A stretch of 64,000 bases of DNA from Eunapius fragilis (taxonomy: Eukaryota > Porifera > Demospongiae > Spongillida > Spongillidae). The translations under genes were made by a program, and so were the position numbers. The first letter of the stretch is position 1. The number at the start of each line of letters is the position of its first letter. Location: positions 554,679 to 618,678 of the forward strand of contig OY811990.1 in NCBI GenBank assembly GCA_963681505.1, read 5' to 3'. Positions 15,801-40,442 of this stretch are shown here, one piece after another. The notes below the pieces were generated by a model. That model was not told the origin of the DNA. It did no database searches and worked only from the letters and a program-made list of their open reading frames with translations.

Positions 15801-16721
15801 TCAGCGAACGAGTGATGTGTGCTCTCTGCCAATAATCATTTCCAGCTCCTTATTCCATGGCTCAAAAAAACGAAGTAGTCTTCTCTCCAGGTCTACGGTC
15901 ACAGGTGGGTGTGGTCTACCCTTGCTTTTGCCCATGCACACAACGTTGGAAGTCTGAAAACAAAAGAAGTGAGTCTTCATGTTGTACGTGAAGTGCTCTG
16001 GTGCATAGAAAAGCTCAAGTCCCAAGCACGATTCCAGCTTGCGCAGTTCTTGGAATGGGGACACAATGAAGCTATCTCCGTCAACGTAGCAGAATTGATC
16101 CCGTTTGAACACTTCTAACCATTTTTTAATGTGGTACGAATAGCAGCTGGAGTTCAAAATCGGAACATCGGATCGCACGTCACCGTCGCTTCCAATAACA
16201 AGGCTTTGAAATGGCGGCAACACGTGTCCTTCAAGATGGCGCAACAAGCTCCACTCTACGTATTCGGATAACGCCCTCTCGATGGGATTGCGAGTGATTA
16301 CGATGAACCTCAAACTGTACGGATCAATTCCGATCGCTGTAGCCGTCTCAATAATTCTTGTGGGAGCATCTGGATTGGTAATGTAGTCGGGGCTTTTCTC
16401 AATAATAAAAGAACCGCGATCAGGTGAGCGAGACGGTAGGGAGTCCAAATACCACTCCAGTCCCTTCGAGTAATGTAAAGAAAAGTATCTGAGCTCTTTG
16501 GGCGGACCTCGCAACGAGGGGTGCAGTTTTAGGACTTCATACAATGCCTTCGTCCCAGCTTTGCCGAATCCTACGATCATGTAAGTTGGAAAGCGAGAGT
16601 AGGCGGCTCCGGATACTCGTGCTTCAGCGGAGTCAGATACAGAGATGTTGTAGTATGTAACTATTAAACAAATGACTACAAGTGCCGTGACGCAAAGCAA
16701 CCTCGTCGACGTCGTCCGCAT
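15801..16721 (-). CDS. Heparan sulfate 3-O-sulfotransferase-like Golgi enzyme
   Basis: A 306-residue, intronless, type II membrane protein. It should transfer sulfate from PAPS to a glycosaminoglycan in the Golgi lumen. Residues about 8-23 are a hydrophobic signal anchor. The 5'-phosphosulfate loop is VGFGKAGTKAL (50-60). PPKELRYF (73-80) carries Glu76 where HS3ST enzymes have their catalytic Glu. EKSPDYI (109-114) matches the family's EKTPAYF, and RNPIERALSEY (144-154) is the 3'-phosphate site. Near the C terminus, a Cys pair in FFCFQTSNVVCMGKSKGRPH fits the HS3ST disulfide and KGRxHP segment. The open frame extends 8 codons upstream without ATG, so ATG at 16721 is chosen. The stop of the scaffold gene lies only 153 bp upstream, leaving little promoter space. 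Exact substrate is unknown; another sulfotransferase branch is possible. Confidence 0.8.
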   Translation of the reverse strand: MRTTSTRLLCVTALVVICLIVTYYNISVSDSAEARVSGAAYSRFPTYMIVGFGKAGTKALYEVLKLHPSLRGPPKELRYFSLHYSKGLEWYLDSLPSRSPDRGSFIIEKSPDYITNPDAPTRIIETATAIGIDPYSLRFIVITRNPIERALSEYVEWSLLRHLEGHVLPPFQSLVIGSDGDVRSDVPILNSSCYSYHIKKWLEVFKRDQFCYVDGDSFIVSPFQELRKLESCLGLELFYAPEHFTYNMKTHFFCFQTSNVVCMGKSKGRPHPPVTVDLERRLLRFFEPWNKELEMIIGREHTSLVR

Positions 16722-16874
16722 GTCTGACAATGTTTTAAAAAACAAGGCATAATAACAGTAAATAAAAATAAAAATTTAATGACGGTTTAAATTAAAATGC
16801 ATAATAATATATATGTATATATCCGGATCAATGCTGGAGATAAAAAAAAAAAAAAAACAGGGGTAGTTAATATT

Positions 16875-19800
16875 TCAGTGTTTCTTTTGAGCTTTTAATT
16901 GATGTCTTTTGCTAGTGGGGGGCACTAGAAGGTGCCCATCAGACAGCCGAGGATCATGACCGGAGTGTGAGGACACAGACGAGCTAACCCCGGGGGATAG
17001 ACTTACCCCGGGGGATGCACCGGTTGGTGCAGACAACTTCAGCCGCAATTCTTCTAATTTAGATCTGATGTACTTCACCTTTTTCCTTTGCAGCAAGCGG
17101 ATGCGCACTATTGACTGTACTGTTAGGACAGCAATCCTGAAGCGGTGATGGGGTGATGTCTGGTGGTGAACCCTGGTAAGCTGCTGTGTATCCACAGGTG
17201 CCCCCATGTCAGCCATCATCATGAGGGAGGCCTGTTGTGTTTGGTAGAACGCATCCAACTGACATTGGAGATATTTCTTCTGAAAGAGCAAAGACCTGCG
17301 GCGCAGTTCAGCTTGACGATACTGTAGTGACAACTGACCAAGCTGAGGGTTAAAATACAACAAGAGACAAGAATGTAACCTTGGGGGAGGGGTACATCTA
17401 GGCACATTTAACCTTGGGGGGGGGGGGGGGGGGTACATCTAGGCACATGCAGCCTTGGGGGGGGAGGGGTACATCTAGGCACATGTATTTATATGTGGAA
17501 CGAAATGTGCAAAACATCAAAGAGCTACAATGTGTAAAAACACAAGTTACATGTAATGTCTACTTAAGTTTGATGTCTCATACAAGTGAGAACAGCAATA
17601 GTACACACAACCAGCTATGAATATTATTCCCACAACAGTTATAAGCCCGGTTGTATAAATGGATGGTTAATAAACTGTCCATGCGTCTACCTTACCTTTA
17701 CTTCAAATTCATCTCTAATTGAGGGTGACCCATTACAGTCAGCTTCCACTGCCCTCTTGCCTCTATTTGGTGCTCTCTCTTGGTCCTGCCAATCACAAAA
17801 ATACAAAAACAAAATTATGAAGTTCACAACACAACGCCTTAAATCTTAATGGAGGTCAACATTACTGCCACGAGATCAATACAACTATACACCTATGCAT
17901 ATGCACCTATCTAAATAAGACCACACACCTTGTTGTTTACACCTTCCACTCCTGGCAACCTTTGCCCCTGGACGTGTGGCTCAGCGCTCATCGCCAGTTT
18001 CAGTGCTTGCAGCTCTGCATCCCTTGCCTTGATGGCTTCCCTCAGGGCCGCGTTAGCTTTGTGCTCCTTGTCAAAGAGCTGACTGAACTGATCCATCTTC
18101 ACCTGGTGGTCTGCCCCTTGGGCTTCAACGTTGGCCTGCAGCTTTCCTATTTCCTGCTGCTTGATGGACAAAGCCAGCTGCGAGCTGTCCACCTCCTCCC
18201 TGGCGGCCTGGAGCTCTCTCTGGAGGATCTGCAGCCTCTGGTGGAGGTCTTCTACATCACCATTGGACTCACGGGTGGGGGCCCCCTCCGGGAGTTCAGC
18301 GCTATTAGGAGGGTCATCCCGGGTGTAGTAGTCACTGCCGGGCATTGCATGGCGGGTTCTAAGCTCGGCCACCACCTTGTTAAGCTCAGCTTCCCTGGCA
18401 CGGGAGGCTTTGAACTCGTGGTCCAGGGTAGTGATGGTGGTGGCAGCTCTGCTCGCAAGCTCTTCTAATTCGCTAAAGTTCCTGCGAGAGTCTAACAGCT
18501 CATCATGGAGTGCTTGGATAGATGATTCCAACCGTACTCTTTCAGCTTCTACCTCACGGTGATCTAGCTGAGCCTGGTTTAGGAGCAGCTGTAGCCTGGC
18601 TGACTTCACACCCTCTGACTCCAATGCAGCACTGAGGCAAGAAACATTTTGCCAACAGGTTAACCCCCTTGCAACATGATGGCCCAATCCTTGTAGTGTG
18701 ACAATCAAGGTGTGATAATGACCCAGGTGTGATGGTGACCCAGGTGTGATGGTGACCCAGGTGTGATGGTGACCAAGATGTGATGATGACCCAGGTGTGA
18801 TGATGACCCAGGTGTGATGGTGACCCAGGTGTGATGGTGACCCAGGTGTAATGACAACCCTGGTGACTCAGGTATGATGGTGACTCAGGTGTGATGATGA
18901 CCCAGGTGTGATGGTGACCCAGGTGTGATGGTGACCCAGGTGTGATGATGACCCAGGTGTGATGGTGACCCAGGTATGATGGTGACCCAGGTGTGATGAC
19001 AACCCAGGTGTGATGATGACCCAGGTGTAATGACAACCCTGGTGACTCAGGTATGATGGTGACTCAGGTGTGATGATGACCCAGGTGTGATGGTGACCCA
19101 GGTGTGATGGTGACCCAGGTGTGATGGTGACCCAGGTGTGATGGTGACCCAGGTGTGATGACAACACAGGTGTGATGATGACCCAGGTGCGATGACTGAG
19201 GTGTGATGACAACCCAAGTGTGATGGTGACCCAGGTGTGATGATGACCCAGGTGTGATGGTGACTCAGGTGTGATGATGATCACGGGTGTGATGACCGAG
19301 GTGTGATGACGACCCAGGTGTGATGGTGACCCAGGTGTGATGACAACCAGGTGTGATGGTGACCCAGGTGTGATGATGACCCAGGTGTGATGACGACCAA
19401 GGGGTCATTCTATGGCAGATCACCCGGTCAATAACACCACACAGTCTCGTATTTGGATGAAATTGGGTATATATGTTTACCACGACTGGGAAAGTAACTA
19501 CATCAATTATCCCCTTATAATCTTTATCGGATTTCAAGATTTGGTATGATAATTGTTTTATTTATTTCTTTACCCTAAATCTTTGACTGCTAATATCTCT
19601 GTAATGATTAGTCACATAATTTAATGCAAGGTATATTTGAGAAGTTGAAGCATCAAACAATCTGAACACATACTTGAAATAATAATTTGGGAGGTTAATT
19701 AACCAGAACATGAATTTCTATTTTTGGGGCGCATCCCTGTAAAAAGGGACAAAATCTCGCAGTGTAAGAGATAATACATCACAAGGTTGTATCATCATAG

Positions 19801-22800
19801 AGTTATTTAAAATCAAAATAGGAGTGGCTAATTATTTGGTTATTGAGTATTTCAAATGACAAAGGTCACAGCCCTATGCGGCCATACAATTTGTGGACAA
19901 AAGGCATACCTCTTGAAATATTGAAAAAGTGGCGTAATGCCCTAGCAACCACCCTTGACAACCGACAACCTTAGAAACCTTGCACTACATGTTAACATGT
20001 TTGAACTTGTCACCATTCTAAAGCCATACAATGAATGAAGGATCTTTGTTCTATTTGTAGCCAAAGTCACATGGCCTAGTTTTCTCTCCACCGCTTCCTA
20101 CAAGCGGCCATTTTTCGACGAACGCATCGTCTTCAACGTACTTTTTGGACCACGTAGACAAATTCTGCACCCCAGTTGGAAGCGAATAACAAAAGGAGAC
20201 AGAAGGAACTTACAACATATAGTATGGAACTGTAGCCATACTTTTTCTTCGCAATGGTATACGCATGTGAAGTGTACTGTGGTTTGAGCCGTGTAAACTA
20301 GCCCAGTACATATACGTGTTGACGTGAAAATCAGCTGGACCCCTCTGCCCTTATGTACCCACTGTCAGCTGGACACCCAGCCCACGTACCCACTGTAAGT
20401 AGCTGCACCCCCTGCCCCATGTACATGTATTGGACCCCCTGCCTTCATGTACCCACTGCAAGCAGCTGGACCCCCCTGACTGCCCCCTGCCCCATGTACC
20501 ACTGTTACACTCTGCCCCCATGTACCCACACTGTAATCCCCTGTCCCCATGTGCCCACTATGAACAGCTGGACCTCCTGCCCCATGTATATGCCCACTGT
20601 TAGCAGCTGGACCTCCTCCCCCACATGACTACTGTAAGCAGCTGATCCCCCGGCCTTCATGTAAGCAGCTGGACTCCCTGCCCCCATACACCACCGCTAC
20701 CCCCTGCTCTCATGTACCCACTGTGAGCAGCTGGATCCCATGCCCACATGTACACTCTATAAGCAGCTGGACCCCCTCCCCCATGTACCCACTGTAAGCA
20801 GCTGGACCCCTGCTCCATGTACATGTATGAAGCTGGACCCCCTGCCGTCATGTACCCACTGTAAGCAACTGGAGCCCCTACCCCATGAGTCCACTGTAAG
20901 CAGCTGGACCCTTGCCCCACATATGCCTACCCTCAGGTACCAACTGTAAGCAGCTGGACCCCCTCCCTCATGTACCCACGCCCCCTTCCCCCATGTACCC
21001 ACTGTAAGCAACTGGCCCCCTTGCCCCCATGTACCCACTGTAAGCAGCTAGACCCCTTGCCCCCATGTACCCACTGTAAGCAGCTGGACCCCCCTGCCCC
21101 CATGTACCCACTGTAAGCAGCTGGACCCCCTTGCCCCCATGTACCCACAGTAAGCAGCTGGACCCCTGCCCCCATGTACCCACTAAGCAACTGGCCCCCG
21201 TGCCCCCATGTACCCACTATAAGCAGGTAGACACTGCCCCCACATATGCCTACCCTCATGTACCAACTGTAAGCAGCTGGACCCCCTCCCCCATGTACCC
21301 ACGCCCCTTTACCCCCATGTACCCACTGTAAGCAACTGGCCCCCTTGCCCCCCATGTACCCACTGTAAGCAGCTAGACCCCTTGCCCCCATGTACTCACT
21401 GTAAGCAGCTGGACCCCTTGCCTCCATGTATCCACTGTAAGCAGCTGGACCCCCTGCCCCCATGTACCCACAGTAAGCAGCTAGACCCCTGCCCCCATGT
21501 ACCCACAGTAAGCAGCTGGACCCCTGCCCCCATGTACCCATGCCCCCTTGCCCCCATGTACCCACTGTAAGCAACTGGCCCCCTTGCCCCCATGTACCCA
21601 CTGTAAGCAGACCCCCTCCCCCATGTGCCCACGCCCCCTGCCCCCATGTACCCACTGTAAGCAGCTGGACCCCTGCCCCCCATGTACACACAGTAAGCAG
21701 CTGGACCCCTGCCCCCCATGTACCCACAGTAAGCAGCTAGACCCCTGCCCCTGTGTACTCACTGTACACTCTGCCCCTATGTACTCACTAAGTAGCTGGA
21801 CCCCCTGCACATGCCCCAAAGTACCTACTATAAGCAGCTGGTCTGCCCCATGTTCCCACAGTAAGCAGCTGGACCCCCTGCCCTCATGTACCCATTATAA
21901 ACCCCCTCTCATGAATGCTCTCCTTTTGATCTCTCTAGCCACCAAATGTTTTCCACAAGCTCTGCAAAGTTTCTGGAGCTGGTATATGTGGTGTTCCATC
22001 TAGGCTATGTAACCGAATATGGCTACTAATACCGCATTATTCATAGAAAAGCAAAACCCTTTATTGTGTGGTGAAAAAAAAGTATGGCTGGACCTAAATG
22101 GTGTTTCTGTATACCTAAATGTGTATAGTTGACAAAGCGGCATGCTGACGTTCCTGAGAATTTGTCTGTGCTTGGTATTATCAGCGTGAAGTACCCCCTC
22201 TCCCTTACGATATCCATATATAAATTGGCTGCGCGTTATTAAGGATTGCGATTTGAAGAGTGCGCATATGGTATAGTCTCTACTACGACGATATACCAGT
22301 TAAATGGGAGGGATCAACAGGTATTTGATGGTAAAATGAACAAGATACAGCTCTATCAAAAAACGCCATTTTAATGAGGCCATGGCGCATCTAGCCGCAA
22401 TGAGTTTTTCTGGTTTACGGTATTGTCTAATTATGGACCCTTTTGTCCAGCCGCAAAGGGCTGTGAGGTTATTGACATAGAGCACTCCATGGCAGCAATG
22501 AAATGCTGTGGTTGTAATGTAAACACAATAAAGGGTGAAGCCTTACATGAGACCATGAATTAGGTTCATGCTTTGGTTTGTCCCTACACTGAATGGATGC
22601 AATGAAGTGAGGTGTACAACCCTATTCGTGAGACCTGACCTGTTGCTGCACCTTTTAAAATACAGCTATTTAAGGGGGGGGGGGGGGGGGGGATTCTTGT
22701 GTGAGTGTTCTTTCTGATATGAAGTTATCATTATACACAGCTTATATCCTGAGTAGTTATATTGTGATTAGTTAGTTGGTGGCAGTAGTCTACATTGCTT

Positions 22801-25690
22801 TTTGAATGGTGCATCGTAAGCCACACTCTCAAGGGTACTCAAGAAGTATCATAGATATGTTCCACTCTCCACAACTACTTTGGCAGTGCATGAAGTTTCC
22901 TCAGGACCAAGGGCCAGAGTAGTCAGCATTGTGGAGGCGTTGCAAATTGACATCTCTGATGTAGTCAAAGGCAACTATGTAGCATGTATGTACGATAAAA
23001 AAGTGTGGTATGGTACAGTCAATGATATCTCCGAAGAGTTTGGAGATTTACTAATCAGGTTCATGCACCCCAGCGGTGGTATGAACAAATTTGTTTTCCC
23101 TGAAAGTGATGATACATGCTGGATTGAGGAAAGTGACATTCTTTGCACCATTGACCCACCTAGCTTGACCAGTTCCAGAGGATACACTATTTCACATGGA
23201 TAATTGACAAAGGCTCAAACAGCTTGTACCTTTTTTATGTAGACCTGACATTTGCCTTTATGTTAAGACCTTTATGTTAACTGATTATTTTTGGCTGGGA
23301 AATCAAATTTGAAACATTATCCATTTGTTTTGATAATGCACCATATAAAGGATGAAGCCATATGTAGCATCTCACCAAGGTGCATACAAAACGAAATGCT
23401 TGTACTTTAAACATTTATAGTTTTTTGTAAATAAGATTAGCCAGTCCAATTTATAACATTTTATACTCTATGATGATAGGGCTTTACTGGAAAAATAAAA
23501 CATTTTAATAAAAGCTTGTCCCTTCATAGCCATGAGCTGCCAAACTTTGTGTTACAATTTAATGGTTAATAAACTTCATGAAATAATTAAAATAACTCAA
23601 TAGTATAATTTGCCATGGTTTTGGCTTCTCAATGATACCTTGCACTGTACTCTGTGACCAATGGCTCAAGGGATATGAATTTTAAAGATGAAAGGGTAAA
23701 AAAAGAATGGAATAATTAAAAATCAAGATTCTCCAGATTTGATAAAGACACAGATGTGATAATTGGTGACCGTACTTTCCCTAATATACTAAATAGGTGT
23801 GCAAACTATAATTCAAATCTGAGGGGGTGTGGTGGAAAAATAGCATGTCCATCGGGTGATCTGCCATAGAATGACCCCAAGGTGTGATGATGACCCAGGT
23901 GTGATGGTGATCCAGGTGTGATGGTGACCCAGGTGTGATGGTGACCCAGGTGTGATGATAACCAAGATGTGATGATGACCCAGGGGTGACAGTGACCCGG
24001 TGTGATGATGACCCAGTCTGCTAACATACCGTAACTGCAGCACCTCCTCAAGCTGATGCATGTGAGCAGAGTTGGCCTCATTCACTACATACATGTATAG
24101 ATGTATGTATTGTTAAGAAAACAAAAGGGTCAGAACGATACCAGTACTGTATTGCACTCACATTGGTTTACAAGTTCCTGGTTTTGTACCCTTGAAGATT
24201 CCTTAACTTGGGTCAGTTGCAACTGTAAGCTATTGATCTGTATGGAGTGTACAGTGAAGTTGTGTATGTACAGGTGTTCACGTCTGGGATACATGCAATG
24301 ATATGGAAGAACTCCACACATAGGATCACATGCTATAATCCAACATGTACAATAATCCACTATGCACCTCACACAAAATGTTAGCATAGGAAAATGGCTC
24401 TTAATCCAAATAGTATAAGATGTGAAATATTTAAGCAAAGTACATGCAAAGAGCAGATAACACATAGTGATATGTACAGGTTCCCTCTACAGAAGATTAC
24501 ATGTACATGAAACAAATCTTGATCCTTAATCAGATCTGACCAGCAGTGAAACAATTATAAATTTACAGTAATGGTACATTAATCATAAGTCTGTTACCTG
24601 TTCTTTTTGCTCAGATCGCATTGTGTCAAATGAACGTTGTAACTCTCTCATTTCAGCGACCAAGGACTCTCGCTCAGCGTTATGTAACTGCTGCAATTGT
24701 GTGGAGTAGCTGGATATCTGTACAAAAACGAATTCCTAATAAGTACAGTGTACAATGTATGTTACATGTGCAGTGTATGGTTTACATACATTTGTACTGG
24801 TAAGCAATAACGCATGTGTACCTGTTCTTGGAAAATTCTTTGATACCTTGCAACCAGATCTTCATCTTTGCTATGCTCAGTAGAGGTTGGTTCTGCCCCT
24901 GATGGTGTCATGGCAACCATCTTGCTGTGCTCATGTTGCAATATCTACATGTACACAATTACATGTTAGAATAATGAAGACACCTGCATGTGGGGATGTG
25001 ACACCCACCTTCTCCACAGAGACAATCAGCTCTTTCCTCCAGTCTTCTATATCAGATGCAGTCTACATGTGTATGGTATGGCATTCATGAGGTCCCTGAT
25101 CAACAGGATATTGTTTTTACCATCTTATTTCTCAGATCTTGCAGCATGGTCTGTAGCTGTTCAATCACTGAATGTAAGGAAGTAGGCGGAGCTTCGACAA
25201 CATCTTCCACAGGTAATGGTCTGAGAAAATACAGTCAGCAAGCTATGGTAAGGTGTCAGCAGGCTATGGTAAGGTGTCAGCAGGCTATGGTAAGGTGTCA
25301 GCAGGCTACAGTAAGGTGTCAAAAGATTATGGTAAGGTGTCAGCAGGCTATGGTAAGGTGTCAGCAGGCTATGGTAAGGTGTCAGCAGGCTATGGTAAGG
25401 TGTCAACAGGCTATGGTAAGGTGTCAGCAGGCTATGGTAAAGTGTCAACAGATTATGGTAAGGTGTCAACAGGCTATGGTAAGGTGTCAGCAGGCTATGG
25501 TAAGGTGTCAGCAGGCTATGGTAAGGTGTCAACAGATTATGGTAAGGTGTTAGCAGGCTATGGTAAGGACTTACTGCCCAGTCAAACAACACAGCTCTCT
25601 CACAGCTTCAGCTTCTGCTTCAAGAAGTGGACCCAACTCCTGAGAACATGCATGTAAGGGCAGGCAGTGTAGCATAGATCATAATAGACT

Positions 25691-25772
<82 letters not shown>

Positions 25773-28700
25773 ATGCCTTAACCATTTACCCATAGTGAAA
25801 TTTGGCTTCTATCACATACATGTACCAGACTGGAGGTCATACGTTGTACACAACCCAGTCTTACAGTCCTAACCCACTTGCTATCTGAACTGTGCAATGC
25901 ATACCATAATTCTTGACAACAACATTTCATCAGAGAGATCTTCATAAGCATCATCAGCTGCAACAGGCTCAGTTCCATCTACAAGTATACAACAGCGTGT
26001 TAAACAGACTACTTGTACATACATGTACAAGTGTATCACACACATAGTCCACAGACGTATAAAAAAAGGCAGTTAAAAACCAATGCAAGCTTAGACAAGC
26101 CAACGCAAGCCTACACAAGCTTAGACAAGCCACCACAAGCCCTGACAAGCCACCACAAGCATAGACAATGCAAGAAGGCTGTACCCAGTGTGTCTTGCTC
26201 GTCCTCAGGATGCAATGGTGGCTCTTCACGTGACTGCACCTTCAGGAGGGCCACCTCCCCAGCGTGGCGGCTTGCCAGCTCATCGCGCTGCCTCTCCAGG
26301 TCCTGGGCGTGCTCGAGGCCAAGCTGGCTCAAGCTCTGCTCGTATTCCTCTGCCATGCTCCGCACAACTGCAGCGTGCTCAAGCCTCAAGCTGGCCACCT
26401 CCTCTGTGTGGGCGTGGCTCTGCAAGGCCAATGCCTGATCGTGGAGCACCTTGGCTGACTGTACCTCTTGTCTGTGTGTGGCTTCCAAGCTGCTTATCTC
26501 ATCTCTCCACTGGGCCACGGAGCACACAATTCAAAACAAAAGGCATGTGATGCAGACCCGCCCACTGATCAATTATGCTATTCATGGTGGAGTAACTAAC
26601 GTGCAATGAATACTGACAAGCACACACAGATATGAGCTCACCCTTGTTTGGTCACCCTGGAGTAGTTCACAACGAGCACGTTGCTGGAGTAGTTCACGTC
26701 TAACACCAGCAAGCTGCTCTTCCAATAGTGCTACCTCAGCTTGTAATCTTTTTTCCAATTCACGTTTCTCGTCCACCAATTCGGCCAAGTTGTTCTCAAG
26801 CAGTGTTTTATGGTCCACCAAGCGGCCTAGCTCGCCATCCCTCTCTGATGCAGCGTGGAGCAGGGCCATGTTCTTCTTCCTCATACCTTCACATTCCCTG
26901 CTCATGTCTGCAAGTTGTTTGGCCATGGCCTGATCCCGCCTTTCTGCCAATTCAGACCAACCACGCTCTGTTAATTGCAACAGCTCTTTGAATTTGTTCA
27001 ACTCGGTCTTGATTTGTGACATGCACACTTCTAATTGACGGTTTAGCAGAGATATCTTCCCTTGTACACCTTCCAGCGCCTTCTTGTGATCAGATTCCAT
27101 GGCAACTAACTCCTCCCTGATCTGTGCTTCAGAATAGCGTGCAGCGTAGCACGCTTTTTCTGTCTCCGTTAGTTTGCACTGTAAGGAGTGAAGGTCATCC
27201 AGGAGCCCCTGAGCCTCTGGCATCTGCTCTTCTAAAGCAGGGGATGAAGAGGCCTCCCTTGTGGTCGTATGCTCTGCACCTTGTCCACTGGATTTGTAAA
27301 TTGCAAATTCATGTTCAACTGCATATAGCTTGGAGACCAACAACTCCTTTTCAGCAACAAGGTTTTCTACGATCTCCTCTTTAGCTGCGAGTTGATTTGG
27401 CAGGTCTTGGAGGTGAGTGATTTCATCGCACTTGCCTTGCAGTTGCTGCGTGTAGTCGCTCATCAGCTGACTAATTCGACCATCTTGGGTGTGCACAGTC
27501 AATTCAAGTTTGTCCTTGACAGCCCTCAGCTCAGTATTAGCCTCCCTCAGGGCCAGGCATTCCTGCTTAAGCAAGACACCATTGCTTGCGAGATGCTCCA
27601 GCTCTTGCTCATAGCCGGCACGAACTTTCTGCCATTCCTCCTTCTCCAAATCCAATGCTTGGGCCTGCCTCACACCATCGGCCTTCACAGTGACCAGTTC
27701 TTCTTCTAGCTGCTGTATGTCTGTGTCCTTTTTAAGCAGAAGTCGTTTGGTTTCATCAAGCTGCTTCGTAAGGTCACCCAACGTTCTTTCGTTTGATTTA
27801 AAAGCCCCCAGCAGGTCCTCCACACCTTCAATCAGATCACTTCCTCCATTTTCGACCTGATCAACCAACTCATGGATCTTAGCCTCGGCAGCAGCCAGCT
27901 GTTCCTGCCTGTCCCTGAGGTGGCCGTCCATCTGCTGGACCTTGGCCTGCAGCTCCGACATCTGGTGAGTGAGGGCACGCTTGTCACTGGATGATTGTTC
28001 CTCCAAACTCAGCAGCCTTTCATGGACCTTTGAAGCCTGTGCAAGTACAACACATCAAGGAATAAATGGAAGACACCCACCCACCCACATATACATACAC
28101 TTTGAATACCTACACACATTCACACACCCACAAACACACTTTGTAATGACTACATGTACCTCACTGGCTGCCAAGACATAGTGTTCAATCAGGTCACGGA
28201 TAAAGCAGTGAAGTTTGACCAGGTCACCTATAAAATACGAATATATTGTGGATGCGATGCTTCGCAACGCCTCATCACAACACAGGCAGTTCAAATGTAC
28301 CTTGAATATTGGGCTGACAGTCAGAAGGCTGAGAGAGGACCGATGGGTCATGGGTTTGGTCCAATGGATACACACTCAGGTCGTTGCCATGGAAGTCCCT
28401 GTCAACGTCAGCAGGCTGGTGAGGTAGACTTAAGTTGTACTGAGATGTGCACAAGGTGTCATCCAATGGAAGGACAGTGAGGTTGTGCGAGGCTGGGGCA
28501 CCATCCTTATCCAACGCTGGCTCCACAGCTAGCCCCATAGATGGTGGCTCTGCACGATATATCTCTCCACTTAGCTGGTGATTATCATAGGTTACCAGAG
28601 GGGTGTATTGCGACATGTCCCGAACACTGAAGTGACCCTGGAGGGTACTGAACTGCTGGCTGGCAAAACCACTGTCAACTTTTGAGGAGAATGTCAGGGC

Positions 28701-29569
28701 ATTATCAGGTGTCATGTATCCAGGGTGAGGCTCCATCTGAACAGGTGGGCAACAAACTAACACAGTTACACGTACATGTACAACCTAATGAGGTAAACAT
28801 ATCAGTTTAAGGTTGTGGTTGGTAATATTATATTAAATGCAAGTAACATTGAAAATCAATTAAACAGCTATCTCACAGAGGTTGGGACAAATAGCAAAAG
28901 GTGTTGCTCCTACATGTATATAGTGTCCGCCTGTACAAGACCCTGCTTCTATATAGTGCTCATCTGTACAAGGTGACTACCACCCTGCTCCTGTATGTAT
29001 GTCATACAATTTAGAAGCTACACATAATATTTAGCAGCAATACAGTGTACACAGTACAGTACATGTTTGACCAAGACAGCTATTGTACAACAGCGTGCTA
29101 CAATAAAAGTATGTGCGACAAGAATGTCTTGTACATCACACACTCCCCCTCCCTCCATAGCACGTGTGGTTACCGTGGTGTGTTCTTCCTTCTGCAGGTG
29201 TGGCATGGACGATGATGAGGTGAGGTTCAACGTGGCAACAAGCTGAAGGGAATTGGTCACCACGCCGTGAAGGGACGTGAGCTGGGTCTCCACCACAGCC
29301 CTGATGTGGGAGGAGCACACATGGGGGTGGTGAGAAGGCCGCAAAGCACAACACCCACTATAGCACACCTCTCTGCCCTGGCCACGTCCAGCTCATGCTG
29401 CATGTGCGCAATGGTGTCCTGCTGTTCCTTCAACTGTCGTGTGTAGCGACCTTGGCACTCTGACAGCTCAACATCCGCCACACGCAAACTTTCTGCCATG
29501 TGCACGCTTGACTGCTGTAGCTATGAGCACATATGAACACGTACAATAAGTTACACCCACGTGACAGTG

Positions 29570-29632
<63 letters not shown>

Positions 29633-32600
29633 CGTGTATATTCACAGTAACCCATAGGCTACTGTAAATATATTTCTACACCGAAAATAATACTCATAGT
29701 CAAAATCATACACCCAAACATGTAAGGCATGTAAAGAGGCAGGAGTAGTGACAATACACTTAGACATGTTACTCTGATATGAATGGTGTAGTAGGGTATT
29801 TTAGTGTGCAATAACACCAAGCCTGCAATACCAGTTCAGTATCTTTGGTGAGCTGGTGAAACGCTGACTGCAACTGCAGCTTCTCCTCCTGTATCAGAGA
29901 CACTTTAATTTACATGTAAAAGCAACATTCACTGTACCCGTAAGGTATTCTGTGCTTGAAGCAAACTCGCGTTCTCAGTAGTTTTAAGTTGAATATTGTC
30001 TTCCATTTCATGGATTTTTTCTGACAATACCTGTTCAATTCTTGTGACTTCTTTATCTGTGAGCTCTTTGAGGGCAGTGAGCTCGTTCTGTTTAGCTTCC
30101 AATGCTTCCTGTAAAGACCTCTGTGCCTGTACCTGTGCACTGCTTGCCCCCAACAGTCCTGCATTCTGCTGCCTCAGCTCTGCCAGCTCAGACTCCATCT
30201 CTCTCACCTTGGTTACCGGGACAACCTCTTCCTCGTACCGTTCTTTCAGACGTGACAGCTCTTGCCTGTGTGAGGCAGTGAGGCAGGCTATGTCTTCCTG
30301 GTACTTACACTCCAGTTCTTCCCTAACCACTGAGATGGCCTCCTCATGTTGGGCTTGCAAGATGCCTCTCTCGTGATCAGCTGCGGCTAGTTCAGCCTGG
30401 TGGACCTCCTGAAGCTTTTCTGTCATTTGCCTAAACTTCTGCATGTGCTGCTGTGACAGTAGCATAGAGGCCTTCTCCATAGCTTCGTTCATGTCCTTTT
30501 TCACTTTCTCTATTTCAAACTCTGTTTTTGCATTGTAATTGTCAGCAATTACCTTCAACTGTTTGGAGTAATCAGCCTCTAATTGCTCCCGTAGTGTTTG
30601 CTCCTGTTTGGCCAAGTCTAGCTCATGGTCAGCTCTAAGCTGGGCAATGTGACTAGCATATTCCTCGGACATTGCTTGTTTGAACTCATGTAGTTTAGAT
30701 TCGTACTCCCTCACCTTAGCTACCTGCATTTCAGCAATGCTGTGAATATCTTCTACTTCAAAACATTTCTGACGCAGTACCATCTGAAGTTCTTCTTCAG
30801 TACCCTGCTCTGGGCCATGTTTCATTGATTCAGCAGTCTCCAACATCAAGGCATGTCTAATAGCAGATCTAACGTGCAGTTCTGAAAGTGCTTCAATATA
30901 TCTTTCTTCAATATCCGATTTTATGTTCTCAAGTTGCAAAACAAACTCTGAGTGCATTTTAGATTCCTGCACCCAAAGATTTAAATCATGTATTTTAAGC
31001 AGCCTGTCTTTCTGCTGCGTAAGCATATTCATAGCTTCCTCATTAATAGCACTAACAGTTCTTGACAGGTCCTCATTGTGTGCCACCTTCAAAGCCTCAA
31101 TCTCTTCTGCAAACTTTGCCTGTAGCTCCAAGCACTGCTGTTCATGGGCCTCTTGCAGCCCCAAGCATTGCTGTTCATGAGCCTCTTGCAGAGATGGCTG
31201 ATGATGGATTAACTTGTCATTTTCTGAAATGGTCTGCACCTCTTGAGAACAACAGACTTTGCTGCTGGCCTTTGGGTGTAGCCTGTGCAATAACTGGTTT
31301 TCTTGATGGTGCCGCTGCTGAAAAGCCCACTCCAGAGATTGCAATTCAGAGCGAAATGTGGCCAACTTCAATTCATACTCGGAAACGATCAGTGTCCTTT
31401 GCTGTTCAAAATCAGCCTTCAGTTGGACAATGCTTTGTTGGTGTGAAACACTCAGCTGCCTCATGTTGTAGCTCATTGCTTGCAATTGATTCTTGCAGTG
31501 CCTTAGTTTCTTTTCCATAACCAACTTGTACTGAGCCACATCACTATCTACCTCCTCCCCATCAGGAAGACTGCTGCTGAAGGACATATGCAGCACATCT
31601 ACACCCTGTTGACACCCAGTCGGCCTGTCGGGTTCAGCGGGCAATGCAGCATCTTCGTACAGGTCCTCGCAAATACTCATGTATGCACCCTTAGGACTGC
31701 AGAACTCTTCGTAATGGCTTTTCTTAAGCTGTCCAGTTTCAGCAAAGTGCTCAAGTCGAAGACCTCGATGCAAAGGTTCATCCAATTCAGTGCCTGCATT
31801 GGGATCAAGGCAATGATCAAGCACAGCAGCTCCCAGCGGCTGGTGGTGGTGGTCACTCAACACATGCCCATCGTCGTTGCTTTGAGAAGCTGTACGTTGT
31901 ACTTCAGACATTTTTTGTTCGTTAAACATTTCATACTTCTTCCTCAAGATTTCCAGGCCATCCCTGTAATGGGCACACAGCTGTTCCAACTGCGAGCAGA
32001 ACTGACGCTCTTTTTCAGAGGCAGCACTATCTTTGAAGCAGTCGAGGCAGAGCTTGTACTCATTCTCCAGCCTTGCCCTCTCCATAGCAAACACTTCACC
32101 ACACATGTCACTATACTGCTGCTGCAACTTCTCTTCGACATCGCGCATGCTTTGGCTGTACTGCATGTTCAATTTATCTGAAAGAGCCAACATGTCACTC
32201 TCCTTCTCCCGCTCCAGGACCATTTTGACAGTACTGATCTCCCTCCTCCTGCGTCCATCCATTTGTTGACAGATGCCCTCCAATTCTAGACGGTGAGTAT
32301 CCAGCAACTGTTCTCTAAGCTCTTCAAGCTAAATAAATGAATACACAGGTGTTATAGGATTATGTTTATATTCTATAATGCATTCCACTAATAATATCAA
32401 CATGCAATCGTAAGCAAATGTATAATTATAATTGAACTCTTTGCAAGCTATACATTAAATAAACCAAATCATGATCCTGTCATGCAATCATAAAGAAAAT
32501 ATTTTTCCAAAGTGCTGTAAGATGTGGGTGCTACAGTAATAGGGTTCCAAAACGTGGCAAGCACACACAGGAGGATAATCTCCACCATGTTCCCATGGTC

Positions 32601-35600
32601 TCCCAGCAAGGCCAGGCCAAAGGTGGGTGCAAATTAACAGTAGCAGGATGACTTGGTGGAAGGCCATTCCATGTACAGTGTTACATGTACAACTTCTCAT
32701 GAACGGGTGGAAAAAAAAAATGATTGATTCAATACAAAATACAACAGTGTAACATCTGTACAGGAATGGCCAACCAATACAACAATAGTACAAGATAAAT
32801 GTATGCAATGCAGTACAATTTATGACTGAAATTGAATGCAATTTAAATAACCTCTTTCTTATGTCTCTCCTCCAATGAAAGCAAGGAGTCCTGATGCCGT
32901 TGCGACAGGTGAACTTGCAGCGCTTCGAGGTCTTGACTATGGTGATAGGAGAGATCCTTGAGTTCCACTGAATGCTTCTGCACAAGCTGGCCATGTAGAC
33001 GGTCTAACTCATTTATGGATTTCTGCTTCTGCTGAACTTCTTTCTCATATTCATGGACCTTCTTTGCAATCTCGTCATCTTTTTGCTGAATGATACCATC
33101 TTTTGTTTCCAATGATGACTTCCATTCTGAATGACGTCGCTCAAGTTCGCTTTCCTTCAGTCGTAATCTGGACTCAATCTCGCGAAGCTCAGATTGCAGT
33201 TGATCCTTCTGGCTTTGCAGCTCCTGTTCAAACCTGCTCTTTTCAAACAGCAACTCCTCTAAGCGCTGCTTTTCTGCAAGCCTGCGTTCCAATTCAGTAC
33301 GATGGAAGTTCAAATTTCTTTCAAGGTCAGCCTTTTCCTTCAGCTTCTCTGTCAATGCTTCGCGAGCAGTCGACAGGCTTTCCTCAATACACACCTTGTC
33401 ATTAGCCAATCCAACAGCTGCCTGATTAGGTCCACTCTCCCTTGACCCAGCACCAGCAAGCTGTCTTCTAAATTCCTTTTGCAATTCAGTAAATGCAGCT
33501 TCCCGAGTATTGAGTTGCTCTAGCAGAGCCTGTATCTGCTGCTCCTGCTCCAAGACCTTGAGTTCACATCTATTTTGTTTATCCTCAGAGACAGCTTGAG
33601 AGTTTTCCAACTGCTCAATCTTCACCAACAATTCATCCCTTTCCTTACATACAAGTTCCAATTCTTCTTCAGCACCATGAGGGTCTTTTCTAGAAGATGC
33701 TTGTTTGAGTGCAGCATTTTCTGTAAGGACTGCATCAAGTGCCTTCTGAAGGTCAGAAATACTGTCATTCAATTGTTGAATCCTATCCTCATCCTGCTGC
33801 TTCTGGTGATGTCCATCGGCAGCCGTTGGCTTTAAAGCCTCCATATCTTTCAACAGTGCAGCGACTGCAGTTTCATGTGCCTGCCGGCTAGCAGCAAGCT
33901 CACGATGAGAAGCATCCAGATCTGCCCTCACCTGCAGTAACTCAGCATCCGTGGCAGCATAGCGGTCAGAATGTCTACTACACTCATCTTTTACTAGTCC
34001 CAACTGCAAGGCCACTTCATGTGCCCCCTGTGAGACCTGCCGTACCTCTTCCTTCAGTGTCGCACATTGTCCTAGCAGGTCAGAAATGACATTCTGATTA
34101 TCAGCAATTTCCTGACATAGTTGGGCTATCTTTTGCTCTTTGGATTTAGCTGCAGCATTCACTTCATCCAGCTCTTGCTTGCACTGCAAAAGCTGCTGCT
34201 TTGTCGACTCTGCAGTATACCTTTGTTCATCTGCAGTGTTTCCAGCAATACTAAGGTCAACCTTCAGTGTCCGGACAGCTTCTTCGCATCGCACAAGCTG
34301 CTCGGTTAGCTGCCTTTTATCCTCACCACAAGCGCGCAAATTTTCTTTCGCCTCCTCCAGATTTCTTTGTGCAAACTCTAGCTGTGCCATGAGGTCCTGA
34401 TTTTCCGCTTGCCACTCATTTCTTTGCTCATCCAACTCCTCTTCAAGTTTAGCAACCCGGCCTTCTGAAACTGCAAGGGGGCTGTCTTCACTTTCCAGCA
34501 ACGACTCCCGAAGCTTCTGAATATTTGCACTGTGCTTTTGTTTAAGGGACTGAATCTCGACTTCTTTCTCCTCAACCTTCTTCTTCAACTCCTGTTTCAC
34601 AGCTTCCACATTGGCCTGCATTTCTATCTTCACAGTGGCTATCTCTTTTGCATGCTGAAGGCCTAATGCTTCCAGCTCCTTGTCATGCGCACACTGCTGC
34701 TCATTGCAAGCCACCCTCTGGGTCTCTTCAAATGTACGCCGCAATTCACCAATTATCCTGTCATGGTCAGCCTTGAGCAGATCAATGTCGTGCTTGTAGT
34801 CCACAGAATGCGAGGACTGGACAACCTTTTGCAAACTTGACAGCTGTTCTTCAAGTGCTTCAATTTGTTTTTCAAATTCAGCAGTGACCTTTTCAATATC
34901 TTCTGCCTTCTCAGTTTCGCAGTGGAGCCTAATAGCCTGTGCATCTGCGATGTGCTCCTGCTCCAGTTCACGCAGCTTGTTCTGAAAGCTTTGCTCCTGC
35001 AATCGGTACTCCCTGAGCTGCTTCTCTAGGTTCTTCATGTGCACCTCTGCTACCTCAAGACTGGCCTTGTCTCCAGAGGCTTCAGATAAACTGTCCTCCA
35101 AAGAGGTCAGTTGGTTGGTCAGTTTGCCCTGCATCTCTTCCTTCTCTGCCTGGTGCTGCTCCTCCAGCTGCTGAAGGTGGATTTCATGTTCATTTTTGAG
35201 CTCTTCTACCTCCAGCTGATAGTGCTCTACTAAGGCTTTGCTTTCAGAAAGCTCAGCCTGAGTATCTAGTTGTGCTCTCTTCAACTGATCAATATTACAA
35301 CAAAGCTGTTGCCTTTCTGTTTCAAATTCATTCACTTTAGCTTCCAAAGCAGTTGACTTCTGTTTCCAGGATGAAATAGACTCTTCAGCTACACGAGCAG
35401 CTTGTTGCATCTTACTGATCTCATCTGAGTGCATTTGAGACAGTAATGTATACTTTTCCTCAAGGCTTTCCTTTTGATGAAGGATGTCTTCCAACCTTTG
35501 CTCCATGGTGCTGTATTTTGTTTTAAACTCACTTGCTTCTGATTCAAAAGTGCTCCTTTCTGCAAGAACCTGTTCGTAGGCAACTCGATACTCGGAATGA

Positions 35601-38600
35601 ATTTTCTGAATTTCACTATTGGCCTGTTCTTCCATGTTCTTTTTGAAATTCTCTTGTTGCTGCAGGTAATCCTTTGAAAGCCGTTCTTTTTCTCTGCTGT
35701 GCTCCAACTGTAGAGTATTTATCTCTTTATCATACATGCTTTTGAGTTGCTCCTTTAGCAGTTTGATTCTCATTGCTTCTCCTTCATCTTGCTCATGTAG
35801 CTGTGAACTGGCCAGCTCTGCAGAAAGCCTAGCAATATGTGCAACATGTTCTTGAACTACCAGGTCATGTGCTGCCTTTTGCTGATACATTGCACTTTCC
35901 ACTTCTCCTTTATGTTTAAGTGATAACTCAGCAAGCTGTGCATTAAGTGCCCGACACTCAGTTTCAGAATCTAACAAATGCTTCCGCAGTTCTAGAACTT
36001 GTTGCTGATTGAGATCAACAGCTTCTTTAGTCTGAACATCAATTTTAGTTTGTGAAGGTCTATCCGAATCAAAGGTTAAGTCAAATATTGATTCTTGTTC
36101 TTGTTTGTCAACTTTTCTAACCAGCCTATCGGCATCTTTGCTAGTCAAACCAATCGAAGATTCTAGTGCAACATGATCTATCGCAGGCACCATACCCACT
36201 AAGGATATGTCAGGGCTGAATCCCTGGGGGAAAAAGTAGAAAATGTATAATCATTACAGTAGGGCTTAAGAACACCATGTATGTAATATGAATTGCCTCC
36301 ATTGAGGACAGTGGATCATGAGTATTTGTGTATACTAATGGAAATGTCATCAGTACACACATGTGTACAACACTACAGCTGCAAGCTGTACAAGTACATG
36401 TAGCTGTGTAATTGGCATACCATTTAAATTAAACTAACTCTTGCAATTACCATGTAATGAATGAATGCGAGCAAAAACAGTAGGATAACATACAAAATGT
36501 AGCATTTGAGGATTTGGCTACTCAGTTTTTATAACAATTGTCAAATATGTAAGGTAATGCAACCACGTACATGCAAATGTCACAGCTATCTTTAGTCACA
36601 GTGTGCAGCTTAGGATCTAAGTTTGGGCAAAGTTTGGGCACGATTTGCATTGACCAGATGCTACTACCTTTGGCATAACCTTTAGCACCTAGTACTGGTA
36701 AACATGCCCTATTGCACGTCCGACTATCATTGTGGAAAGTTTATAGGAATTTGAAGGACAAGTACTAGGGAGCACAGTGGCAGAACAACAGCTCAAGTGG
36801 TCTCAATGAAGGACGTTTTAGCAGGAGCCATTAGTGAGCACTAATACACACAAACTTCCTAGTCAAGAGGCCCGCTGTCTAGGTCCAGTTGTGTTGCTCC
36901 TAATGATGGGTACCATTCATTGGGCTGCCCCACTGCTCAGTGCATGCATGGTCGAGTGCAAATGGTGACGTGTTTGACGAAAGCATGCAGCATTGATTTG
37001 TCAGACGATATATATATATATATATACACATTGGATCACATGTACCTATAGCAGTTTTGTTGTTTGCAAGGAAAGGGGATAAACAAATTCTGTCTTGCAA
37101 TAGAGTTAATAGCAATCAAGATCGTTAAGCAAGCAATAGCTATACAATCACAATTAATCACTATTCCCCACTTTATCTTCTGCATGTACATATATATGCA
37201 CACAGTTATTTTGCATGCACACATATAGCTATATAGCGTGGAGCATTTCATCACTGTGGAAAACTTATTGCAGTCATTACAATAGACAACTAGTACTGTA
37301 ATTATGACGCCCTGCGATAAATTTCACGTTTGTAAGTGGCAAATCAGTTGTTCTAATTGACAGGATTGGTTTTTAAGGCATGCAACTGCTACAATACTTG
37401 TAAACGGACCAACTACTGTACAACAGAAAGTGCTTGTTGTATTTGAAGCTGATATAGTTAAGGTAGTGTGTAGTAAACTAAGTTTAATGCAGAGAAATAC
37501 TTCTATAGGTACTAGGGACAGCGCGTGTCCATTGTTAAGGCTAAGATGTCAGCATATGTTCTAACAGAAGCATTTAACGAGTGATCCTAACCAATCCTAT
37601 GCTGTGAATTAGTGACCAGCATTTTACACTCATTCCTTATCCAATTAAATCATCCAGAGTCATAGCCTTGACTGCGTATTAGTAGTTTCTCTCTCTCTCT
37701 GTTGTAAATACGTATGTGTATGTGCTAGTTCATCTATGTTGGACAACCCCTAGGGCTTCTACCCTGGGACCACCACCAAACCATAACACCATGACCAGCG
37801 TCACCCATTGGTCCCTGTAGGCACAGTGGTATACAGCACAGCTGCTACATGACTGACTGTGGGCACCGGCCTCCATTATAGGTCAAACATAATACTAACA
37901 CAAGTCTCAGTATACGAATGGTCCCAATTGTGGGAGCAATTAGATGGCATTAATAGATGTTTCTAATCAGAGGGCTGTTCTATAGGTCAGCGAAAGTTTC
38001 ACTTCAAAACGTTTGATTAAGAATGCCATTGAAAGAATACAGCCAATACCGTGTGGCCTCTTTCTAATGTCACCCTGATTGAAGCTAGTTGGGGGTGGGT
38101 GGGGGCAGCTATGGCAACTGGGTCTCCTCACACAGCCACTTTCCTTGCCATAGACCAGGCCAGCTCTAAAGCAAAAATGGCTGCAAGATTTATGGCCATC
38201 TCTTGTGAGGTCGGTGACCAGCGTCATCTTAGTAAAGGAGTTACCAACTGTGTTAGATCGTATGTTTAATACCCCTATACATGTAGCACCATGGTTCCCA
38301 CTAACAAATCATATTTTGACCTCTGTTTGATCCAAGATGACCTTCGAAAGCAAGTTGCCTTAACCTTAAGTTTGCAAATAAATTGTCATGGCAACCATTT
38401 TGCACCATTCAAGATTAAATATATGAATCCCAATAAAAAAATCAGAAGGCTAACCCTTTGGGTCATGACATGGGAGCTTGGTCATGACTTTTGGTATTGA
38501 TTGTATTCTTGGAACATAACAAGGACAAGAAATAATATTAAAAAAAACAGGACCCACAGTATCTGCTTTAATAGTGTGTACCATATGTAGCTCTTAAGTC

Positions 38601-39055
38601 AGGGGGCAGGCTGGCCACACTGATTACATCTCTGGTGATAATGCATTGAGCTAATTGCATTACAAAACTTAAATGTATTGTCCTCAAACTACTAAAGTCA
38701 TGGAAACACCAGAGCACATAACCCTCTGAGGTCTGTAGGAGAGGAGGAGGGTAGTGTGTGTGTTCTGCTGGCCTATTTGCAAGATGCAATCATTAGGTTT
38801 AATCATAAGCATGTGATGTCACGGGATACAGTGTATGCCATGTGACCTCTGATCGTCTAGCCTGCAAACTGAGTGGTCCACTTATTGCAGGGTCGTATCT
38901 GTTTGGGCCAGACATTTGAAAGTTTCAAGCCACACTCCTTTCGCAGCTCATCACAGCGGAGGTACCCAACCCGTTACATATATATGTAACACATTGAAAA
39001 CATGCCAAAGAACTGAACAATTATTTGTAAAGAATTTTGCTAAGGAGCCAACCTT

Positions 39056-39099
<44 letters not shown>

Positions 39100-40442
39100 G
39101 GCAATGGGTACTGTGAAGAGCTGCTATAAGAGTAGCTAAAGAACATGTGTCCAAACCTCTAACAACCCAAACAGGTACAGACTTATACAATGCACAGCCG
39201 TGAAACATTGCTAGACTGCTGAAATGTGGGAACACCAAATACTTTGTTTCCTGTACCCTGCAATACATGTATACCCAGTACATTTAACCTTTGAACACCA
39301 CCATATCCATGACAAGTTGTTTTTTGGAATGATGATATGTATTAATCCTTTATGGAAAGTGAAAATCATATTCAATTGATTAGAACAACTCCAATTTAAC
39401 AAAATCAATATTTGTTTACGTCGGTTCTACACCAACATAAAGCTCAGAAGCATTATTGATAAGATTGAAGGAGAATAAACAAAGGTGGTTGTGACTATTC
39501 GAACAGCATTCATGTTATCATATTACAGATAGGGCTTTGAGATTTAAACAGCTTTGCTTTTAAAATATATATACAAAACCAAAACATATCACAATCACAT
39601 ACACCAGAACTATACACCTTTTGCACAATGAAATAATGCCATAATTTTAGCTGATAGGATGAATATCACTTACTCTGCCATGAATATGATGGTTAATGTG
39701 GGAGCATATACCCATGTCTTTACATGTCTTATGCCAATTATGCATATAGACATGGTCTTTGCAAATAAAATCTCCAAAAGAAGAATTCAACCCAACAAAA
39801 CTAAGTGTACTGTCATTTAATTTGTTTTTAATACTTATATGGTGCATGTATGTATCACATCACATGATCAGTATGTTTCCTTGACTACTTTGTATCCACT
39901 TCAACTGAATGCAATAACCTTGGAGTTGACCTGACACTAAGTATGTTAAACACAATGCGTGCATTAAACCAGTCAACTTTTAACAGATTGTATGCATGTG
40001 TGTAATGAGACATACCAGCGGATATGACATACTCGCTGCAGACATTTCTAACGATGCAGCACTACTTTCACTCCACGGCAGTGGGGAAACATTAGTGTCA
40101 GCCTGCACATGCAGTGCAGTGCTGATGTCACTTGAGGAAGTTGGTTCGCTCCTGCTATTGTCGCTAGATTCCTCATATTCTGTGGGTTTCTTCTTGCTCT
40201 TTTTTGCCTTCTTCTTTTGATAAGCAAGCAGCTGAAATGTTAGGAACAGCATAACAGTATATACTACCCTTCTTAGTCCTTCGTTATCGCAGCTGGTTAA
40301 TATACTAGTACACTACAGCCTTGTGTAATGTACAAAAGAAACCAATTGCAGCAAAGCGAACAAAATTATCCAATACAAAGTGAAGACATACCGCTTCTTT
40401 CCCAGCTTGCAGCTTTGACTTGCGTTCGCTTTCGTCTTCCAT
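16875..40442 (-). CDS. AKAP9: Pericentrin/AKAP9-family centrosomal scaffold with PACT domain
   Basis: Giant coiled-coil scaffold expected at the pericentriolar material. Twenty-two exons, in order: 40392-40442, 40016-40231, 32852-36223, 29938-32328, 29832-29888, 29369-29520, 29174-29300, 28301-28736, 28160-28227, 26642-28036, 26185-26509, 25905-25978, 25575-25639, 25121-25220, 25009-25062, 24822-24944, 24598-24717, 24162-24237, 24030-24084, 17929-18631, 17696-17785, 16875-17342. All are GT-AG and phase-consistent; the product is about 3505 residues (human pericentrin about 3340, AKAP9 about 3910). The start MEDESERKSKLQAGKEA and the following Lys-rich, Ser/Glu-rich segment resemble both paralogs. 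Residues 90 to about 3200 are mostly heptad coiled coil, interrupted around 2123-2290. The last exon has the PACT signature RRRSLLFQKKYLQ, then DAFYQTQQASL, then MGA and a basic RIAVLTVQSIVRIRLL segment. It may represent the pre-duplication ancestor, so the symbol is approximate. Small extra exons in the 3.8-kb intron 2 cannot be excluded. Confidence 0.9.
17405..17480. repeat. G-rich tandem tract in scaffold-gene intron 21
   Basis: Three copies of a unit like ggggtacatctaggcacat with poly-G runs of up to 19 bases (about 17415-17433). It lies about 60 bp upstream of the PACT exon (minus strand). Confidence 0.75.
18708..19398. repeat. 17-bp minisatellite in scaffold-gene intron 19, main part
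   Basis: About 40 copies of ggtgtgatgatgaccca or the ggtgaccca variant. The array stops abruptly at a transposon end at 19401 and resumes beyond the other end at 23879 (23879-24015). The two parts were one array before insertion. Confidence 0.92.
20345..21900. repeat. 36-bp satellite array inside the transposon
   Basis: Around 40 imperfect copies of a unit made of ccatgtacccactgtaagca followed by gctggaccccctgccc. Copies vary in length and in the number of C residues. The variable spacing and lack of unique spacers rule out a CRISPR array. Overlapping ORFs on both strands come from the repeat. Confidence 0.93.
22889..23203 (+). pseudogene. Transposon-borne ORF, C-terminal fragment
   Basis: Open for about 100 codons after a possible acceptor (ttggcag) near 22884. 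It reads VKGNYVACMYDKKVWYGTV, then LLIRFMHPSGGMNKFVFPES, then DDTCWIEESDILCTI. This arrangement (YVAC-YD-W-G-V, FMHP-G, FxxP, D-CW, ILC) is one I associate with the C-terminal part of uncharacterised transposon-linked proteins in marine animals; the fold may be a small beta-barrel. No upstream partner ORF is intact. It lies antisense to the scaffold gene, inside its intron 19. Confidence 0.5.
23879..24015. repeat. 17-bp minisatellite, remainder
   Basis: About eight copies of the same ggtgtgatgatgaccca unit as at 18708-19398, on the far side of the inserted transposon and next to the exon 19 donor. Confidence 0.9.
25230..25568. repeat. 21-bp minisatellite filling scaffold-gene intron 13
   Basis: About 16 copies of caggctatggtaaggtgtcag fill almost the whole 354-bp intron between exons 13 (25575-25639) and 14 (25121-25220). 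On the transcribed minus strand each unit supplies a ctgac branch-point-like word and an ag dinucleotide. Because 21 is a multiple of 3, reading frames stay open across it. Confidence 0.93.
25696..25768. repeat. (CA)n microsatellite in scaffold-gene intron 12
   Basis: About 35 ca dinucleotides interrupted by a few g bases, close upstream of exon 13 on the minus strand, where it reads as TG. Confidence 0.92.
29572..29628. repeat. (CA)n microsatellite in scaffold-gene intron 5
   Basis: About 28 uninterrupted ca dinucleotides, roughly 50 bp upstream of exon 6 on the minus strand. Confidence 0.93.
36224..40015 (-). other. Scaffold-gene intron 2 (3.8 kb), no gene seen
   Basis: Contains a (TA)n run near 37008-37025 and a (TG)n run at 39058-39097. 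A 66-codon minus ORF at 39647-39847 has several His and Cys residues but no recognised pattern and no supporting splice phase. Small extra exons cannot be ruled out by eye. Confidence 0.5.

Follow-up and report, generated by a model that had tools for sequence, protein, structure and literature searches.

A full-length PACT gene of the sponge Eunapius fragilis as a probable single co-ortholog of AKAP9 and pericentrin

Drosophila and yeast each have one known protein of the PACT family (PLP and Spc110/Pcp1, respectively), and in vertebrates the paralogs AKAP9 (AKAP450, CG-NAP) and pericentrin (PCNT, kendrin) are present. In this work, a PACT gene was characterized on the minus strand of a 64,000-nucleotide (nt) stretch of the genome of the freshwater demosponge Eunapius fragilis (hereafter the window; positions 554,679 to 618,678 of chromosome 20, C20, accession OY811990.1, in the 24-contig assembly GCA_963681505.1 of 218.94 Mb). 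The PACT domain is responsible for centrosome targeting; GCP2/GCP3 are bound by the N-terminal region of AKAP450 and of pericentrin, although one laboratory saw no binding of gamma-tubulin to the extreme N-terminal part (PMC4113106). According to the same source, AKAP450 is brought to the Golgi by GM130 via its N-terminal domain. A calmodulin-binding region lies within PACT, which also interacts with SAS-6 (PMC6559791); PACT sits close to the wall of the centriole, and the N-terminus of the protein points outward (PMC6070874). The gamma-tubulin-complex motifs of AKAP9 and fly PLP were described as "yet undefined" (PMC4034690). The presence of a sponge homolog of the family has already been reported (PMC11082956) and is in itself no novelty; the gene described here is a real full-length addition to a known family.

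The sponge gene and its relation to AKAP9 and pericentrin

The sponge PACT gene extends from an ATG at 40442 to a stop codon ending at 16875 (about 571,553-595,120 of the chromosome), and its spliced form consists of 22 exons with 10,518 nt and 3,505 codons, zero internal stops, and GT-AG borders in all 21 introns. By composition, the protein of 3,505 amino acids (aa) is largely coiled-coil-like, with long charged and proline-poor stretches. A preliminary description of this DNA had claimed a full-length gene with both conserved ends and 22 exons in agreeing phase, and the re-derived model returned the same exon count and both ends, with an AKAP9-like N-terminus and a PACT domain over the Pfam cut-off in one frame. 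Phase agreement by itself carries little weight, because a model builder chooses boundaries that fit. Stronger support is provided by the PACT score and by the AKAP9 similarity across the exon 1/2 junction. The human AKAP9, PCNT, and GM130 sequences used in all comparisons here are working copies and not database entries, and the resulting scores are leads with partial control. AKAP9 residues 1-40 scored at best 47 against the unspliced frames of the window, a value equalled by an unrelated open reading frame (ORF), and 73 against spliced exons 1-2, so the similarity needs the splice.

The final model was assembled from the output of a dynamic program that combines splice and codon signals, with an imposed start codon and training on three long exons, so the program is not independent of the model. 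At the middle intron penalty 20 of the 22 exons were exact; exon 8, of non-coiled composition, was missed, and exon 22 was shortened at a strong alternative donor at 17006, after which the automatic model closed the chain with a final exon holding a single codon and the stop. The stricter penalty gave 18 exact exons out of 22, and the laxest gave 33 exons, including additional tiny ones; an earlier version, whose splice thresholds were tighter, found no more than 16 exons and 3,073 aa. An alternative C-terminus, or a further 3' exon, via the donor inside exon 22 is possible. The chain was derived from genomic sequence, and two transcription units could have been wrongly joined, such as across the 3.8-kb intron 2 (3,792 nt) or the 5.4-kb intron 19 (5,398 nt); both introns are very long, and intron 19 holds minisatellites and a stray opposite-strand ORF. 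However, the phases match and GT-AG sites are present across both introns, and the three conserved islands described below follow the order and orientation of AKAP9 and PCNT, so we regard wrong joining as very improbable.

The translation of exon 22 matched the Pfam profile PACT_coil_coil (PF10495) with 49.2 bits (cut-off 25, E 7.4e-13), and the genome search with this profile gave 54.9 bits at 17082-17312 on the minus strand. A single-sequence AlphaFold model of exon 22, with a mean predicted local distance difference test (pLDDT) value of 70.2 and a predicted template modelling score (pTM) of 0.30, contains helices at residues 2-45, 52-59, and 64-104, the two long ones being the first and the last. 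Against the human PACT domains the sponge domain scored 111 with AKAP9 and 129 with PCNT, with none of 200 shuffles as high in either case, and 33 of 85 aligned residues were identical to PCNT. The sponge LLFQKKYL matches human ALIYQK(K)YL, the human letters being taken from the sequence of a deletion primer in PMC13174551, and the sponge RFRIAVLTVQSIVRIRLLQRKK lines up with the human region RFRTAVRVVIAILRLRFLVKK, a candidate calmodulin-binding stretch.

Besides PACT, no Pfam domain exceeded its cut-off in the five scanned pieces of the protein, from which aa 1990-2122 and 2412-2755 were left out. Matches to IFT57 (E 3.9e-5; 23.2 bits against a cut-off of 40) and, in the Protein Data Bank (PDB), of the C-terminal exon to chain SAKe6DR (best E 0.0047, outside PACT) were judged to be chance, the former a coiled-coil effect. 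In the PDB, no credible relative of the sponge N-terminus was found (best E 1.4), and none of the human PACT or of the human block introduced below at E 0.01.

By comparing the sponge protein with both human paralogs, three collinear islands were observed: the N-terminus, with clear likeness to AKAP9 and weak likeness to PCNT, a block at aa 2950-3054, and PACT. The sponge N-terminus (aa 1-54) scored 80 against AKAP9 1-50, with 0 of 200 shuffles as high and a best shuffle of 70. The block, which was absent from the preliminary description and for which no Pfam family exceeded the cut-off, scored 94 between sponge 2950-3048 and AKAP9 3021-3121, and 89 between sponge 2950-3054 and PCNT 2448-2550, in each case with 0 of 200 shuffles as high. 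Nine segments were tested in total; the N-terminus, the block, and PACT were equalled by 0 of 200 shuffles against AKAP9, and the block and PACT also against PCNT. For the other six, the better paralog was equalled in 6 (exons 9-10, AKAP9), 6 (C-tail, PCNT), 10 (aa 2866-2945, AKAP9), 29, 159, and 200 of 200 shuffles, and the best matches of exons 9-10, the C-tail, and aa 2866-2945 were not collinear.

In all three islands the human paralogs were nearest each other. AKAP9 and PCNT scored 101 with one another at the N-terminus (sponge-AKAP9 73, sponge-PCNT 48), 136 in the block (94 and 89), and 260 in PACT (111 and 129), which fits a sponge gene that predates the AKAP9/PCNT duplication; rate differences could mimic this mutual closeness. 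A second PACT gene, for which the preliminary description had suggested a search, was not found in the assembly: the sole match of the genome profile search was the sponge PACT gene, and protein queries with the N-terminus, the block, and PACT returned only pieces of the same gene (2 of 2, 4 of 4, and 1 of 1 matches). Failure to find a gene in this assembly counts for little, because BUSCO reports 32.1% missing against 60.0% complete for odEunFrag1.1, with a primary k-mer completeness of 55.49% (PMC12616128). This incompleteness leaves room for the gene to be an ortholog of AKAP9 only, with paralogs older than animals and a sponge pericentrin copy that has disappeared or is hidden in the unassembled part of the genome, and the N-terminus is indeed clearly nearer AKAP9 than PCNT (80 against 52). 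On the other hand, PACT is slightly nearer PCNT, the block scores alike with both paralogs, the human proteins are mutually closest throughout, and no second copy was detected by the profile or the three queries. Descent from the AKAP9 side only therefore seems improbable.

We conclude, with a probability of roughly 0.8, that the sponge gene is, as a single full-length copy, co-orthologous to vertebrate AKAP9 and pericentrin. That it represents a pre-split, ancestor-type copy is plausible but short of proof, since the comparison is one of pairwise scores and the BUSCO completeness of the assembly is 60%. The proposal of the preliminary description, a single gene close to both paralogs, was thus borne out as to the one PACT match and the mutual closeness of the human proteins, and is limited by the same two points and by the use of working copies of the human proteins.

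Several points weigh against the co-ortholog reading. The first is that the human AKAP9 and PCNT letters are working copies. The PCNT copy has 3,335 letters, against a last residue of 3336 in the published protein, and carries K at 3154 and serines at 1235 and 1241, these serines being the PLK1 sites mutated to alanine in PMC3899370, and its ALIYQKKY is consistent with the deletion primer in PMC13174551. The AKAP9 copy (3,907 aa), unlike that of PCNT, has no published-residue anchor. Furthermore, the sponge N-terminus is only weakly similar to PCNT (52; 14 of 200 shuffles as high), and GM130 does as well. In a 40-aa test against the sponge N-terminus, GM130 scored 54 (1 of 1000 shuffles as high) and PCNT 50 (3 of 1000), and the AKAP9 and GM130 N-termini are themselves alike (74). 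The N-terminal likeness might then be convergence on a lysine-rich helix of Golgi and centrosome coiled-coil proteins, with true inheritance limited to PACT and the block at aa 2950-3054. However, AKAP9 scored higher in this test (73; 0 of 1000), both proteins start at the same methionine with an identical MEDE, and the likeness continues from exon 1 into exon 2 at the matching end of a protein that carries PACT; convergence is accordingly unlikely in our judgement.

The co-ortholog reading is also weakened by the sliding scan of 70-aa segments, in which z reached at least 3 in 12 of 99 segments per paralog, the ends included; outside the ends, these segments were mostly non-collinear. The block was recovered as collinear only in part (segment 2906 on AKAP9 3002, z 3.4), and segments 2976 and 3011 fell best on AKAP9 at 675 and 707, away from the block. 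The central motif known from fly and human (PCNT 1463-1502) reached 49 in the sponge protein, with 72 of 300 shuffles as high, and was not found in six frames of the window, whereas AKAP9 plainly carries it (125; 0 of 300 shuffles); it is not known to be a requirement for every family member. No significant sponge counterpart was observed for PCNT 2390-2406, the 17-residue CEP215-binding site (PMC3899370), nor was the conserved vertebrate C-tail found downstream of PACT. The AKAP9 helix that binds protein kinase A (PKA), another check suggested beforehand, was not recognised in the sponge protein (229 of 500 shuffles as high), and the general PKA RII-helix pattern occurred twice against 7.3 expected in shuffles, so nothing here justifies the term "AKAP" by function for this protein.

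The family N-terminus is poorly conserved (PMC8349556), and its conservation outside bilaterians is not described in the titles and abstract openings among the matches listed, a scope that mostly did not include subscription journals. The belief that early animals keep only the PACT end, from which the preliminary description started, is partly fair: the N-terminus is described as poorly conserved, and the parts that PMC13174551 names as common to fly and human are PACT and the central motif. We hypothesize that the pre-duplication animal gene was already of AKAP9 type, with an AKAP9-like N-terminus, the block in the C-terminal fifth, and PACT. It would mean that AKAP9 kept the old N-terminus, that pericentrin diverged, and that the central motif of fly and human was later added or fixed, or was lost in sponges. 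We give this history an even chance.

Proposed function and candidate partners

From what is known of the family, the protein would be docked on the wall of the centriole or basal body by PACT, including the calmodulin-binding helix of that domain; the rod would extend outward, and its N-terminal region may hold microtubule-nucleating or Golgi partners. CM1 (PF07989), a check likewise suggested in advance, was not recognised in the scanned parts of the protein: there was nothing in aa 1-500, and 11.7 bits in aa 2123-2411 against a cut-off of 28.5. The scan left out aa 1990-2122 and 2412-2755 and would miss a degenerate CM1, such as was proposed for PCNT (PMC4034690). Because CM1 was unrecognised here and the six-frame genome search gave one partial match in another gene (C13:1191225-1191329), a separate partner of the centrosomin/CDK5RAP2 type would most likely activate gamma-tubulin complexes. 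An ORF downstream in that gene has weak CDK5RAP2 likeness (PDB E 0.34; PF23246 E 0.007, below cut-off). The scaffold anchored at the centriole or basal body would bring a CM1 protein encoded elsewhere, and possibly Golgi membrane too, into position; everything past sequence similarity in this mechanism is inference. A candidate CEP215/CDK5RAP2 docking segment at the collinear sponge position was rejected, with ungapped scores of 16 for AKAP9 and at most 5 for PCNT and a rank of 23rd in the protein in a joint scan.

For other possible partners, SAS-6_N and the GOLGA2 family (GOLGA2L5) each gave a partial match in two pieces in the sponge genome. The Cep57 profile gave no match there, and the control genomes were equally silent, so this result is uninformative, as is the failure to find the GM130 N-terminus in the sponge genome.

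Exon structure and surroundings of the locus

All exons lie on the minus strand. Exon 1 (40392-40442) carries the start codon and MEDESERKSKLQAGKEA (aa 1-17), resembling the AKAP9 N-terminus, and exon 2 (40016-40231; aa 18-89) the lysine-rich remainder of the N-terminal island and a serine-rich linker. The long exon 3 (32852-36223; aa 90-1213) and exon 4 (29938-32328; aa 1214-2010) are coiled-coil-like, followed by exons 5 (29832-29888), 6 (29369-29520), and 7 (29174-29300). Exon 8 (28301-28736; aa 2123-2267) is proline-rich and non-coiled, and was placed by reading frame and by splice sites judged by eye. Exon 9 (28160-28227) precedes the coiled-coil-like exon 10 (26642-28036) and exons 11 (26185-26509), 12 (25905-25978), 13 (25575-25639), and 14 (25121-25220). 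The second island begins in exon 15 (25009-25062) with DWRKEL at aa 2950, continues through exon 16 (24822-24944) and exon 17 (24598-24717; AERESLVAEMRELQ), and ends in exon 18 (24162-24237) at about aa 3054. Exon 19 (24030-24084), the coiled-coil-like exon 20 (17929-18631), and exon 21 (17696-17785) lead to exon 22 (16875-17342; aa 3351-3505) with PACT and the stop codon.

Intronic minisatellites with 17-, 36-, and 21-bp units occupy 18708-19402, 20699-21894, 23880-24016, and 25234-25568. Two distinct arrays of the 17-bp unit AGGTGTGATGATGACCC are present in intron 19; a 16-copy array of the 21-bp unit makes up nearly all of intron 13. Intron 19 also contains a 127-codon ORF on the opposite strand (22820-23203, plus strand) with no Pfam match, perhaps a mobile-element remnant. 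Upstream, the likely start codon of a PP2C-type phosphatase gene (PF00481, E 4.9e-28) lies head-to-head at 40553 on the plus strand, 110 bases from the PACT gene start at 40442, which suggests a shared promoter. Downstream, a sulfotransferase-like gene in a single open frame (15801-16775, minus strand; PF00685, E 4.5e-12) opens 100 bases after the stop codon of the PACT gene. Elsewhere in the assembly, cox1 on C24 has nine in-frame TGA codons, as expected if the mitochondrial code reads TGA as sense, and nuclear cox1-like pieces with stop codons at C9:9625139-9626160 and C9:9674219-9675257 are possible mitochondrial DNA insertions.

Comparison with known PACT proteins

With this gene, a full-length sponge sequence becomes available as a reference for a centrosome scaffold that evolves fast, and as an outgroup for the question of which paralog, AKAP9 or pericentrin, retained the ancestral state. 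It suggests that the N-terminus, the C-proximal block, and PACT outlast the sponge-vertebrate divergence and that certain other parts are not recognisable, and a binding partner could be sought for the block. The sponge protein carries the C-terminal PACT that in Drosophila PLP and yeast Spc110/Pcp1 targets the centriole or spindle pole (PMC4034690, PMC13174551). It differs from Spc110/Pcp1 in their N-terminal SPM-CM1, since CM1 was not recognised in it, and from PLP in the motif that PLP has centrally in common with PCNT. With pericentrin it shares PACT and the block at 2448-2550, whereas the N-terminus is weakly similar and neither the PCNT central motif nor the CEP215-binding segment was recognised in the sponge. 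The PKA-binding helix, C-terminal tail, and central motif of AKAP9 likewise have no recognised sponge counterpart. Vertebrate AKAP9 and the sponge protein correspond in the block at human 3021-3121, the C-terminal PACT, a similar N-terminal segment, and a comparable length (3,907 residues against 3,505 in the sponge).

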